In this document: one piece after another, positions 1 through 22,890 of the stretch | Layout of the letters: the number at the start of each line of letters is the position of its first letter | Position numbering within the stretch: the stretch's first letter is position 1 | NCBI RefSeq assembly: GCF_000242435.1 | Contig: NZ_JH591187.1 | Span: 532,291 to 596,290 of the forward strand | Origin: Dialister succinatiphilus YIT 11850 | GTDB lineage: Bacteria > Bacillota > Negativicutes > Veillonellales > Dialisteraceae | Direction of reading: 5' to 3' | Length of the DNA: 64,000 nt | Position numbers and translations under genes: made by a program | Notes under the pieces: model-generated | Seen by the model: the letters and a program-made list of their open reading frames with translations, nothing else | Database searches by the model: none | Told to the model about the DNA's origin: nothing

Positions 1-633
1 AGCTGGTAAAAGTTATTAGAGATGTTTACCGAAATTCTTCGCCCGGGGTCAGGATGGTCTGTCGGCCAAATAAAAGGAAGGCCCCTCTGAATTTCTCGTT
101 TCCCCTTGAGGGGAAATGCCACGTAGTGGCAAAAGGGTGTACGAGGGTAAGCATACCAATGAAACTCACCATCGTTCTCCTCGGGAGGGCTTTGGCCGAC
201 TCGCGCATTCTATGCAGAATGCGCGCAAGTGAGGGCGGGAAGGGAAGCAGGTAACGCAGGCTCCTTTCTCAGAAAGGAGCTGGACAAAGCCCTGAGGAAC
301 ACCGAGTAATACACTTTATACTTATGAATCAAATCAGGCCATTTCAGGGCCTCGGATTTTTTACGAAAATCCGCTATCCTCCGTCGCCTAACGGCGTGCA
401 CAGCGAACACATTTTGTAGGAGCAAAGCGACGCACAAAATGTAGTGAGTCGTTTCCCCTTTAGGGGCCACCCCCTTCCAAAGGAAGGGGGCTATAAACTG
501 CCGCGCAGCGGCCACCACAACCCTCGGGCCAGGGGCCCGTCAAACCTAAGAACCTTTGGGCCCGAAGGGCCTATCAATCTTAAGAACCTTTCCCTCCGAT
601 CGCGCTCAAAGGGCGCTCCCCTGTAAATTTCAT
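1..633. repeat. Intergenic mosaic of dispersed palindromic modules
   Basis: No convincing gene is visible; the short open frames on both strands have no family resemblance and run through repeats. Contents include an inverted-orientation copy of the nested hairpin family: arms GTCGGCCAAA at 61-70 and TTTGGCCGAC at 191-200, followed by the palindrome at 203-224. There is a hairpin with arms ACATTTTGT/ACAAAATGT at about 411-440. Near 535-600 are GGCCCGAAGGGCC-type palindromes spaced by CTTAAGAACC. The same modules recur in most other gaps of the window. Confidence 0.7.
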
Positions 634-638
634 GCCAT

Positions 639-672
639 AAAAAAAGACAGCCCCGGGGCTGCCTTTTTTTAT
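639..672. terminator. Bidirectional intrinsic terminator downstream of rubrerythrin
   Basis: A GC-rich stem, CAGCCCC/GGGGCTG, is flanked by an A-run on the left and a T-run on the right. It can therefore end transcription of the minus-strand rubrerythrin gene and work from the other side too. Confidence 0.8.
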
Positions 673-678
673 TTGGTA

Positions 679-1251
679 TTAGTAGTTTTCAGCTTTGATA
701 GCAAAGAAGCTTCTTGGATGGCCGCAAACCGGGCATTCCTGCGGAGCTTCTACGGATTCTACGGTGTAGCCGCAGTTAGCGCACATCCACAGTTTCTTTT
801 CGCCCTTCTTGAATACCTGGCCGTTTTCTACGTTAGCAAGGAGCAGTTTGTAGCGGGCTTCATGGGATTTTTCGATTTCACCGACTTTGGAGAAGAGGAA
901 GGCAATCTGGGGGAAACCTTCTTTTTTAGCGGTTTCAGCGAATCCCGGATACATGGAGGTCCATTCATCGTGTTCGCCTTCAGCAGCCATCTTCAGATGT
1001 TCAGCGGTGGTCTTCTTCAGGTCGCCTACCAGCCAGAACCAGATTTTGGCATGAGCTCTTTCGTTGTTTGCAGTTTCACGGAAGAGGTCAGCAATCTGGC
1101 GGGAGCATTCCGGATCCTTTTCTGCTTCGTTGGCGAAGAGATTGTACTTTACATGAGCCTGGGATTCACCGGCATAAGCGGCACGCAGGTTCTTTTCAGT
1201 CTGGGTGCCTTTCAGTCTCTTCATTTCTTCTAATACTTTTGCTTCGTCCAT
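679..1251 (-). CDS. rbr: Rubrerythrin
   Basis: Non-heme di-iron peroxidase of the cytoplasm that reduces hydrogen peroxide in anaerobes. The 190-residue protein has the classical order: a ferritin-like four-helix domain with the iron-binding E and ExxH motifs (AGESQAH near residue 28, ERAH near 64, [10 protein letters not shown] near 125), then a C-terminal rubredoxin-like domain with two CxxC pairs (CANC and CPVC). Length matches the family. The start is the ATG of [10 protein letters not shown], which has an AGGAGG ribosome site 7-8 bases upstream; the open frame extends further upstream but without a better start. It is monocistronic with its own promoter and terminator. A 7-bp dyad overlaps the predicted transcription start, so a peroxide or redox repressor is plausible but not shown. 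Confidence 0.95.
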
Positions 1252-1296
1252 AATAAATCCTCCTTTTAATTTTGCAGGATAATTGATTGTTTTTTT

Positions 1297-1314
1297 GTGT
1301 GTGCCTGCACACAC
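1297..1314. promoter_or_regulatory. Perfect dyad at the rbr transcription start, candidate operator
   Basis: GTGTGTG-CCTG-CACACAC is a perfect 7-bp inverted repeat located 5-22 bases downstream of the -10 box on the minus strand. It could be a repressor site or the first hairpin of the leader; the sequence alone cannot decide. Confidence 0.4.
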
Positions 1315-1318
1315 TTTA

Positions 1319-1347
1319 AGTATATGGAGATTAATGAAAAAAGTCAA
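1319..1347 (-). promoter_or_regulatory. Sigma-A-type promoter of rubrerythrin
   Basis: Read on the minus strand: TTGACT, 17 bases, TATACT. It lies about 70 bases upstream of the rbr start codon. Confidence 0.75.
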
Positions 1348-1525
1348 ATGAAGAATATTGTATGACACTTACCTAAAAATTAGGATGATTACTTCTTAAT
1401 AATTTAGACATGGCGATAATAGAAATAAGGAATACTGAAATTCGGAAAGGACGCGGCTGATGGCGCAATTGAAATCGGGACTGGGGCGGTGCTTTTCCGT
1501 ATTTCCGCAGAGTCTGTGGCCCTTG

Positions 1526-1685
1526 GGAAGCACTGATTAATTCATAGAGTTTTCTTTTATAAGAATTTTTATGCACTGTTTCGTCATGGGCTTCCTTAAA
1601 TAGCTCGCTATTCGCGTCAGCCCATTCCTCGCATTGCATAAAAATTCAAGAATAAAAGCAAACAATGATTTAATCATCGCTTCCC
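1526..1685 (-). repeat. Long hairpin element, copy 1 (inverted orientation)
   Basis: About 160 bases that fold end to end as one imperfect palindrome, with outer arms beginning GGAAGC and an inner stem GGGCT/AGCCC. Two further copies (163 bases) lie at about 13.9 kb and 22.6 kb in the opposite orientation. The flanks at 1375-1525 and 1686-1800 hold nothing recognisable. Confidence 0.8.
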
Positions 1686-1811
1686 TTGAGTGAAGCGATG
1701 CAGCTCTTCTATACAACCTGCGGCGCAGCCGCATTACCCATTTCCAAAAATCATGAATTGAATTATAATGGGTATAAAGAACGCATTATTTCTTTATCTT
1801 TTCTCGACAAT

Positions 1812-13860: not shown

Positions 13861-13939
13861 GCCTGTCTGCGGGAAAGTTTTTCCTTATGTCCTCTGGCTG
13901 CCTCGTGAGCAGAGAAAGGTCCGGCCCCTGGAGGAAATT

Positions 13940-14102
13940 AAGGAAGCGCTGATTAAATCATTGTTTGCTTTTATTCTTGAATTTTTATGCAATGCGAGGA
14001 ATGGGCTGACGCGAATAGCGAGCTATTTAAGGAAGCCCATGACGAAACAGTGCATAAAAATTCTTATAAAAGAAAACTCTATGAATTAATCAGTGCTTCC
14101 TT
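13940..14102 (+). repeat. Long hairpin element, copy 2
   Basis: 163 bases folding end to end. Outer arms AAGGAAGCGCTGATTAA and TTAATCAGTGCTTCCTT pair, then an AT-rich stem GAATTTTTATGCA / TGCATAAAAATTC, then an inner stem ATGGGCT / AGCCCAT. A 38-codon open frame runs through it but appears to be a by-product of the fold. It ends 29 bases before the ferritin promoter. Confidence 0.9.
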
Positions 14103-14131
14103 AAATATACAAAAAAATATATTTAATTTCC

Positions 14132-15183: not shown

Positions 15184-17071
15184 GTGCGCCCGGCATGGGT
15201 GTAATCTAATGGGTGAAAGTCCCTAGTGCGGTATGACCATAACAAGCACACAGCCAATGGCAAGGGGTCCACCGTGAGGTGGGGTCTGAAGGAAGCCGGA
15301 GGCAAAACCTTGGTCCGACGAATAGAAACTTTATACGAAGGCAGAGTCTGACAGGATGAGGCAGCCACCTATGCTGAAGTCCAACGATGGTCTTGGCCAG
15401 GCTTTGTAAATAAAGCGGATAGATGAGGTGAAAGATTACACTCTTACCCGGGGAGGTCTCATGGACGTCAAAGCAGTGATAGGTCGTATATCTGGACCGG
15501 GCGGAGACGGTTGGAAAAGATTTGTCATGAGAAGTCAGCAGAGGTCATAGTACCGCAAAAGCGGAAAGGACCGAACAATTCCGGCCAAAGTAAATCATGA
15601 AAGGAGGAACGTGTGATGAAAACAGAATACAGTTTACAAACTGGCTACCGGTTGGAAAATAGTGGAACTGACGAAGATACAACAAGGAGCGTCGAGCACG
15701 GTCCTCGGGAAATGGAAGAAATGGCAAGCAGAATCACACTGGAGCGCATTGTGAACAGAGGTAATCTCTACGATGCCTATCAGCGAGTAAAAGCCAATAA
15801 CGGGGCACCCGGCATAGACAATATGACTGTGAAGGAATACCCCGAATGGTACGCAGAGCATGGAGAGGAATGGATTGCAAGTATCCTGAACGGAACCTAC
15901 AAGCCACTCCCTGTGCGGCGAGTAGAAATCCCGAAGGACAACAAAGGAGGAAAGAGGAAGCTTGGAATACCCATTGTTAAAGACAGAGTATTACAACAGG
16001 CGACCGCACAAATCCTCATGCCCTTCTATGAGTGCAAATTTGCAGAATGCAGTTTTGCATACCGGCCTCATAGAGGGGCCCGGCAGGCAATGGAAGTGGT
16101 AAAGCGGAGTGTAGAAGAAGGATATGAATACGCATGCGTACTCGACCTTTCTAAATACTTCGACACCATCAACCATGAACTGCTGATGAATATGCTGAGA
16201 CAGGACATTTCGGATAAAAGAGTCATCGAACTCATCAAGAAATTTCTGAAAAGCGGAGTCATGGTCAAGGGATTGAAACAACGCACAGAAGAAGGCTCAC
16301 CGCAAGGTGGGAACCTGTCCCCATTGCTGGCAAATATCTATCTGACTCCATTCGACAAAGAGTTTGAGGGGAGAGGCGTACGTATCGTCAGATACGCCGA
16401 CGACATCCTCATACTGGCCAAAAGCCAAAGAGCGGCAGAAAGACTGCTGAAAAGCAGTACTAAGTATCTGGAAACCCGGCGGAGGCTTAAGGTAAACAGA
16501 GAAAAGAGCAAAGCAATCAGCATCTATAAAACGCCGGACTTTAAATTTCTTGGATTCTCGGTGACCAAAAGAGGGAAAGAGGTTAAACTAATGCCTCATC
16601 CGAACTCAGTAGCCAAGTTGAAGAGGAAATTGAAAAGTCTGACAGGTCGTAGCAAAGGCAGGGGCGCAAGAGAGATTATCCACAAAACGAATGAATATAA
16701 TCGTGGATGGGTTGGCTATTATGGAATAGCAGACCTGACACGGATAGCAGGTCTTGATGGATGGGTAAGGTCTCGTATACGAATGTGCATATGGAAGCAG
16801 TGGAAGAACATATCCACACGGATAGATGCACTGCTCCGACTGCATGTTCCATGGAGACTTGCATTCAAGTGGGGAAAGAGTCAGAAAGGATACTGGCGCA
16901 TAGCTCATAGCCAGATAATGATGACTTCAGTGACAAACAGGATACTGGAGAAAGCTGGATTCATCGGTCTAAAACAATGCTATGAGAATATAATCTGCCC
17001 AAGGAATTGAACCGCCGTATACCGAACGGTACGTACGGTGGTGTGAGAGGGATGAATAATCTCTACTCGAT
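15184..17071 (+). mobile_element. Complete group II intron with encoded maturase
   Basis: The 5-prime end reads GTGCGCCCGGCATGGGTG, a normal bacterial group II intron start. The 3-prime end has a domain V hairpin starting near 17010 (GAACCGCCGTA...ACGTACGGTGG), then a domain VI stem GAGAG/CTCTAC, ending CTCGAT. The ends are supported by comparison: joining the flanks gives CCGGATAGGGTGTGGCGAGCG, which matches an uninterrupted repeat near 31635-31656 with one mismatch. Size about 1888 bases. It is inserted in an intergenic repeat, not in a gene. Confidence 0.92.
15613..17010 (+). CDS. ltrA: Group II intron reverse transcriptase/maturase
   Basis: Intron-encoded protein that helps the intron splice and copies it into new DNA sites. 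Residues from about 45 to 290 are the reverse transcriptase domain, with LGIPIVKDRVLQQA, FAYRPHRGARQAM, GSPQGGNLSPLLANIYL and the catalytic VRYADDILI box (YADD intact). A maturase (domain X) follows, with the RMCIWKQWK segment near 400. There is no obvious HNH endonuclease domain at the C-terminus, so target-primed insertion would need another primer. Length (465) is normal for an endonuclease-free type, and no stop or frameshift is seen. Start: GTG or the next codon ATG, both after AGGAGG. Confidence 0.96.
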   Translation: MMKTEYSLQTGYRLENSGTDEDTTRSVEHGPREMEEMASRITLERIVNRGNLYDAYQRVKANNGAPGIDNMTVKEYPEWYAEHGEEWIASILNGTYKPLPVRRVEIPKDNKGGKRKLGIPIVKDRVLQQATAQILMPFYECKFAECSFAYRPHRGARQAMEVVKRSVEEGYEYACVLDLSKYFDTINHELLMNMLRQDISDKRVIELIKKFLKSGVMVKGLKQRTEEGSPQGGNLSPLLANIYLTPFDKEFEGRGVRIVRYADDILILAKSQRAAERLLKSSTKYLETRRRLKVNREKSKAISIYKTPDFKFLGFSVTKRGKEVKLMPHPNSVAKLKRKLKSLTGRSKGRGAREIIHKTNEYNRGWVGYYGIADLTRIAGLDGWVRSRIRMCIWKQWKNISTRIDALLRLHVPWRLAFKWGKSQKGYWRIAHSQIMMTSVTNRILEKAGFIGLKQCYENIICPRN

Positions 17072-22540: not shown

Positions 22541-22605
22541 ATTGAGTAATTTATAAAGACGCCTCTGAGGCGCAGCCGGGACCAGGATCGGGGTGGAGGC
22601 CCGTT

Positions 22606-22768
22606 AAGGAAGCGCTGATTAAATCACTGTCTGCTTTTATTCTTGAATTTTTATGCAATGCGAGGAATGGGACGACGCGAATAGCGAGCTATTTAAGGAG
22701 TCCCATGACGAAGCAGTGCATAAAAATTCTTATGAAAGCAGACTCTATGAATTAATCAGTGCTTCCTT
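22606..22768 (+). repeat. Long hairpin element, copy 3
   Basis: Same 163-base fold as the copies near 1.6 and 13.9 kb. The inner stem reads ATGGGAC/GTCCCAT instead of ATGGGCT/AGCCCAT, and the outer AT-rich stem carries GTCTGCTTT/AAAGCAGAC, so both sides have changed together. Confidence 0.92.
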
Positions 22769-22816
22769 AACCTTCCCTGCTGAACTTTCTAAACCTTTTA
22801 TACAAAAATACAAACA

Positions 22817-22866
22817 AAAAAGGGGCTGTGAAAAAATGTTTGAACATTTTTTCACAGCCCCTTTTT
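22817..22866. terminator. Bidirectional terminator between rplT and fba
   Basis: AAAAAGGGGCTGTGAAAAAA with its near-perfect reverse complement; A-run and T-run on the two sides. It serves the minus-strand aldolase gene. One of a family of near-identical terminators in this window. Confidence 0.9.
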
Positions 22867-22890
22867 ATTCACAATGAGTGGTCAAATGGT

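Follow-up and report, generated by a model that had tools for sequence, protein, structure and literature searches.

The 64,000-nt stretch of the Dialister succinatiphilus YIT 11850 genome analysed here (hereafter the window) contains three copies of a hairpin-forming element, at 13940-14102, at 22606-22768 and, inverted, at 1526-1685, as the initial annotation of the sequence had placed them. The first copy sits between genes that we take, from their translations, to be hemL and a ferritin gene, and the second lies downstream of a gene that presumably, again from its translation, is rplT (ribosomal protein L20). The annotation had described a 163-nt element; the hairpin stands, and its boundaries have been redrawn. 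The core measures 159 bp, from GGAAGC to GCTTCC (GGAAGCGCTGATTAA...TTAATCAGTGCTTCC), and is a hairpin between exact 4-bp target-site duplications, to which the outer AA/TT of the longer version belongs. All three copies carry such duplications (TTAA, TTAA and CTTG), contrary to the earlier remark that none was obvious; they had been missed because half of each TTAA was counted as terminus. The features are as follows.

13942..14100, plus strand: copy 1, 159-bp core, with terminal inverted repeats at 13942-13956 and 14086-14100
13938..13941 (left) and 14101..14104 (right): target-site duplication of copy 1, TTAA/TTAA
14008..14033, plus strand: apex of copy 1, GACGCGAATAGCGAGCTATTTAAGGA, the most conserved part
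22608..22766, plus strand: copy 2, second subfamily, 159-bp core, downstream of putative rplT
22604..22607 (left) and 22767..22770 (right): target-site duplication of copy 2, TTAA/TTAA
22674..22699, plus strand: apex of copy 2
1526..1684, minus strand: copy 3, in inverse orientation, 159-bp core
1522..1525 (left) and 1685..1688 (right): target-site duplication of copy 3, CTTG/CTTG, non-palindromic
1593..1618, minus strand: apex of copy 3

Ends of the GGAAGCRCTGATTAA type, with at most one mismatch, are present in all three copies. Copies 1 and 3 belong to one subfamily and copy 2 to another, and the window therefore offers a single independent contrast between copies.

Two further features were observed in the window. 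Just downstream of the ferritin-like gene, at 15268-17010, Rfam identifies RNA domains of a group II intron (RF02001 and RF01998); behind them lies an open reading frame of 465 aa, probably that of the intron-encoded reverse transcriptase. At ~22817-22870, a hairpin of ~50 nt (AAAAAGGGGCTGTGAAAAAATG...) resembles the end AAAAGGGGCTGTGACAAAATGG of ~1.8-kb DUF772/DDE_Tnp_1 elements in another genome of the order (G004), and a similar one flanks copy L007; it may represent another miniature family or else a terminator.

Copy number and distribution

The D. succinatiphilus genome (G000, 2.50 Mb) yielded 40 matches, given in query orientation, of which 39 are genuine copies, well beyond the three first counted; ten loci are 100% identical to the query over 159-163 nt. 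The remaining match (C1:532095-532190) is an artefact that duplicates the copy at 1526. To the left of the window (C1:531000-532290), the contig is identical to window positions 431-1621 and ends in the hairpin, followed by 100 N and then window position 1. The assembly had broken inside the hairpin at 1526, and scaffolding that break twice produced the duplicate.

An order-wide comparison of 40 genomes, G000 included, gave matches in G000, in a sister Dialister species (G005, 33 matches) and in G004 (one partial match) only; 37 of the 39 others lacked any match. Exact terminal repeats occurred 34 times forward and 31 times reverse in G000 and 106 and 90 times in G005, with none for a reversed-pattern control. 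Among GTDB genome contigs, the apex pattern was confined to Dialister sp. UBA1703 and a single contig that bears the label Firmicutes bacterium UBA1702, and no match to the element was found in plasmid and phage collections. Our literature search returned no paper pairing Dialister with such elements, and a text search of papers for the terminal repeat sequence returned no match.

Family members of 42-110 bp also exist, their lengths in G005 being unreliable where scaffolds hold N runs. In G000, shorter hairpins of 43-86 bp with the same ends (L076, L085, L086, L087 and L094) are probably internal-deletion derivatives, and L086 has an exact 4-bp duplication. At loci L045-L052 and at many contig ends of G005, contigs stop inside hairpins with ~128 bases of the element, and scaffold gaps (N) lie at hairpin centres, indicating that the element fragments assemblies. 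Six copies (L017, L024, L029, L036, L044 and L051) are embedded in minisatellite-like CCAGCTCACTAGCCCACCAG-type repeats; these contain one of the element's targets, CTAG, and form a local insertion hotspot.

Target-site duplications and empty sites

We compared the flanks of 114 distinct insertion sites, drawn from G000 and half of G005, where many copies contain N runs; 99 sites had good ends. The last four bases before the element equalled the first four after it at 51 of the 114 sites, or 51 of the 99 with good ends. Comparison of 5, 6, 7 or 8 flanking bases gave no match, and shifted comparisons gave 0-2. At the good-ended sites the flank consensus was C/T-T-A-A/G (YTAR); from base composition, we estimate that an independent preference shared by both flanks would yield ~11 matches in 99, against the 51 observed. 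Of the 51 duplications, 22 are non-palindromic (CTAA 10, TTAG 5, ATAG 3, CAAG 2, CTAT 1 and CTTG 1) and so cannot be explained by an inverted repeat that merely reaches further out. Non-identical flanks at the other 48 of the 99 sites need decay or recombination as an explanation.

Three clean empty sites, each with a single copy of the target, were found in G005, corresponding to L021 (TTAA), L025 (TTAG) and L026 (CTAG). In G005, the syntenic gap between the putative hemL and ferritin genes lacks the copy at 13942 and differs in other respects too. The left flank of the copy at 22608 recurs beside a copy in G005 (L047 vs L023), suggesting that this insertion probably predates the split of the two species. 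With one insertion absent from G005 and another common to both, insertions are polymorphic between the species. Short members of 72-108 bp still have exact duplications, and the full hairpin is thus probably not required for insertion, unless these members shrank after inserting.

A hairpin mobilised as single-stranded DNA, in the manner of REP/REPIN or IS200/IS605 elements, would match the whole-length fold, the mostly intergenic placement and the dispersal of palindromic DNA that REPINs and other RAYT-mobilised hairpins share with the Dialister element. REP/REPIN-like, RAYT-mobilised and IS200/IS605-like elements, however, are not known to duplicate their target on insertion, whereas the Dialister element shows clear 4-bp duplications and empty sites that match them, making such an origin very improbable.

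The element is short (159 bp) and lacks a transposase gene, has terminal inverted repeats, duplicates its target and shows empty sites and insertion polymorphism. Because of the terminal inverted repeats, the 4-bp target duplications and the empty sites in the sister species, we assign it with near certainty to the miniature inverted-repeat transposable elements (MITEs), as a non-autonomous DNA transposon and a new family of an established kind. The initial annotation had wavered between a non-autonomous mobile element and a structured RNA, and had proposed looking for flanking duplications and empty sites; what these revealed bears out the former.

Folding, covariation and coding potential

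The suggestion that the copies fold end to end was confirmed, well beyond shuffled sequences. The region 13940-14102 folds at -72.1 kcal/mol (z -10.1) and 22606-22768 at -84.8 kcal/mol (z -12.95), with no shuffle as stable in either case; copy 1 also folds as single-stranded DNA (z = -8.35). The apical loop is identical in the three window copies, as had been noted, and the inner stem reads GGGCT/AGCCC in the copies at 13940 and 1526 and GGGAC/GTCCC in that at 22606, again in agreement. A switch reported for the AT-rich stem held in part: alignment columns 24/138 change as a pair from T-A to C-G, but columns 26/136 are a G.A mismatch in the 13940 copy vs G-C in the 22606 copy.

Covariation, proposed earlier as a check, was examined in an alignment of 29 distinct full-length copies. 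Pairing was retained in 96.8% of cells, compared with 91.8 in shuffled and 37-46 in slid controls, and 19 of 55 pairs had changed on both sides (10.4 +/- 1.7 shuffled, 2-8 slid); the covariation score was 0.207 vs 0.116. Single departures comprised 33 G-T and 22 A-C (p = 0.18); counted on the RNAalifold structure, from which several A-C pairs are excluded by design, they were 33 and 18. Conservation, measured for the main copy against divergent copies, was 91% in the apex, 88% in the terminal repeats and 76% in the arms.

A short gene in repeated copies was a further candidate reading, as the main subfamily has an open frame of 38 codons (MQCEEWADANSELFKEAHDETVHKNSYKRKLYELISASL). Several subfamilies, amplified ones included, have in-frame stops (L013/L031; L030/L032/L043; L039/L055), and variable columns fall 17/10/15 by codon position, with no third-position excess. 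Conservation thus lacks the codon phase that the annotation had named as grounds for doubting a structural element, and we give a coding gene practically no credence.

The covariation is real but does not alone show RNA function, since the pattern is also what template switching from one arm to the other produces (PMC8794818). Selection could nonetheless be acting on a dispersed structured RNA, or on a regulatory or processing hairpin in mRNAs, spread as a MITE and kept for its fold and apex. The excess of two-sided changes over both controls is what such selection would leave, the apex is conserved more than any other part, and single departures lean towards G-T over A-C. This lean is not significant, however, and amplified copies retain A-C, A-G and G-A mispairs. 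Orientation relative to neighbouring genes shows no bias by a rough ORF caller (same/opposite 21/17 for the upstream and 22/16 for the downstream gene); no Rfam family reaches its gathering threshold at the element, which also sets aside a known RNA family; and the 72-108-bp members with exact duplications are too short for the full hairpin. We therefore consider selection on fold and apex unlikely. The structured-RNA half of the annotation fares unevenly, with significant covariation and a non-coding 38-codon frame in its favour, while the non-significant G-T lean and the unbiased orientation lend it no specific support. Slightly less likely still is the more specific proposal that the 26-nt apex is a functional motif on a maintained hairpin, which a transposase would spread as a regulatory or processing module. 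A transcript role for the element is possible but unsupported.

Template switching between the arms of a quasi-palindrome could instead have produced the compensatory changes with no selection on structure, a process compatible with the MITE assignment. It has been described for RNA hairpins (PMC8794818) and in E. coli (PMC7202029). Adjoining pairs change together on one branch; examples are columns 67/98 with 68/97 (main subfamily) and 46/119 with 47/118 (L278), and mismatched intermediates other than G-U are common. Against this, the tree is small and its ancestral states are parsimony guesses, and template switching leaves the conserved apex, most of it located beyond the long arms, unaccounted for. 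We put the chance that switching is the source at about even; it accounts for the covariation at least as well as RNA function does. Conservation of the apex beyond that of the terminal repeats is not required by transposition alone, and one possibility is that the apex mutates more slowly than the template-switching arms. For the MITE as we understand it, the main mechanism that preserves arm pairing is most likely template-switch correction when the quasi-palindrome is replicated, and selection on transcripts may perhaps also contribute.

Candidate transposase

A transposase supplied in trans would bind the ~15-20-bp terminal repeats (GGAAGCGCTGATTAA) and insert the element into YTAR targets with a 4-bp duplication; the element itself is a 159-bp non-coding transposon, each half an inverted copy of the other. 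YTAR is the duplication motif of IS5 (PMC10359306). The YTAR target with its 4-bp duplication and ends of the GCTGATTAA form indicate that the transposase is probably of the IS5-family DDE type, an assignment that draws on the target motif and a weak similarity of the ends. IS5-family homologues in other genomes have ends AGGG(n)TGCTGAATAA, vaguely like the GGAAGC-GCTGATTAA of the element, and the best IS5-family relatives appear to duplicate other 4-bp sites (AATT, ATTT and AAGT).

The genus was searched for DUF772 and DDE_Tnp_1_2 genes as candidates for the parent transposase, and none was retained. The whole G000 genome contained no pair of terminal repeats at IS distance and no match to PF05598 (DUF772), PF13586 (DDE_Tnp_1_2) or an IS5 query, and the half of the G005 genome that was covered contained no pair 450-3500 bp apart. 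No autonomous IS5 element with GGAAGCGCTGATTAA ends was found in genome samples of the phylum, and an IMG/VR scan gave 70 terminal-repeat stretches, none forming a pair around a transposase.

Several transposase genes were considered as the parent and rejected. Two DDE_Tnp_1 genes in G000 have no terminal repeat nearby, and DDE_Tnp_1 in G004 (40 matches) belongs in its two main groups to ~1.8-kb elements with other ends. The sole G004 copy adjoins an IS5-family gene (NF033578, 391 bits vs a cut-off of 275), but this IS element has different ends, and its second copy stops at the same base in unrelated DNA without element sequence. From this shared end base, we infer that in G004 the IS most likely landed in the apex of an existing MITE copy. 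At positions 2000-3766 of L342 (G004:C1:1992000-1997500), the IS5-family element accordingly appears as an insertion in the apex of the sole copy, whose other half seems to have been lost. The second IS copy (L343) is truncated at its 5' end, and a further insertion, which carries an integrase-type transposase gene, interrupts it. G000 now seems to be without an autonomous partner, and its copies are probably stranded or dependent on a lost or incoming element.

Relation to known elements and significance

ERIC, BOX, RUP and QMITE elements have other hosts, termini and targets, and Correia elements use a TA target, unlike the 4-bp YTAR target in Dialister; in both cases the separation is by description. 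The Correia/NEMIS elements of Neisseria resemble the Dialister element in being small, high-copy, intergenic and hairpin-forming, and their transcripts are cut by RNase III (PMC10969869). As described in two papers (PMC10969869 and PMC3049150), ERIC, BOX, RUP and QMITE are likewise interspersed, hairpin-forming miniature elements of similar size. MITEs derived from the IS5 family are also short, non-coding and mostly intergenic, with terminal inverted repeats and a 4-bp YTAR duplication (PMC10359306); the Dialister element differs in being an inverted repeat throughout, and the searches found no matching autonomous IS5 element. The hairpin is unusually complete, and as far as searched the family is new and specific to Dialister.

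Collectively, these observations describe a compact mobile family in a common human-gut genus that is, as far as searched, undescribed; it is numerous in D. succinatiphilus and one sister species only, with one broken copy in a third genome. Dozens of full-length copies at known sites provide a natural test of whether RNA selection or template switching lies behind compensatory changes, a question that bears on any use of covariation as proof of RNA function.
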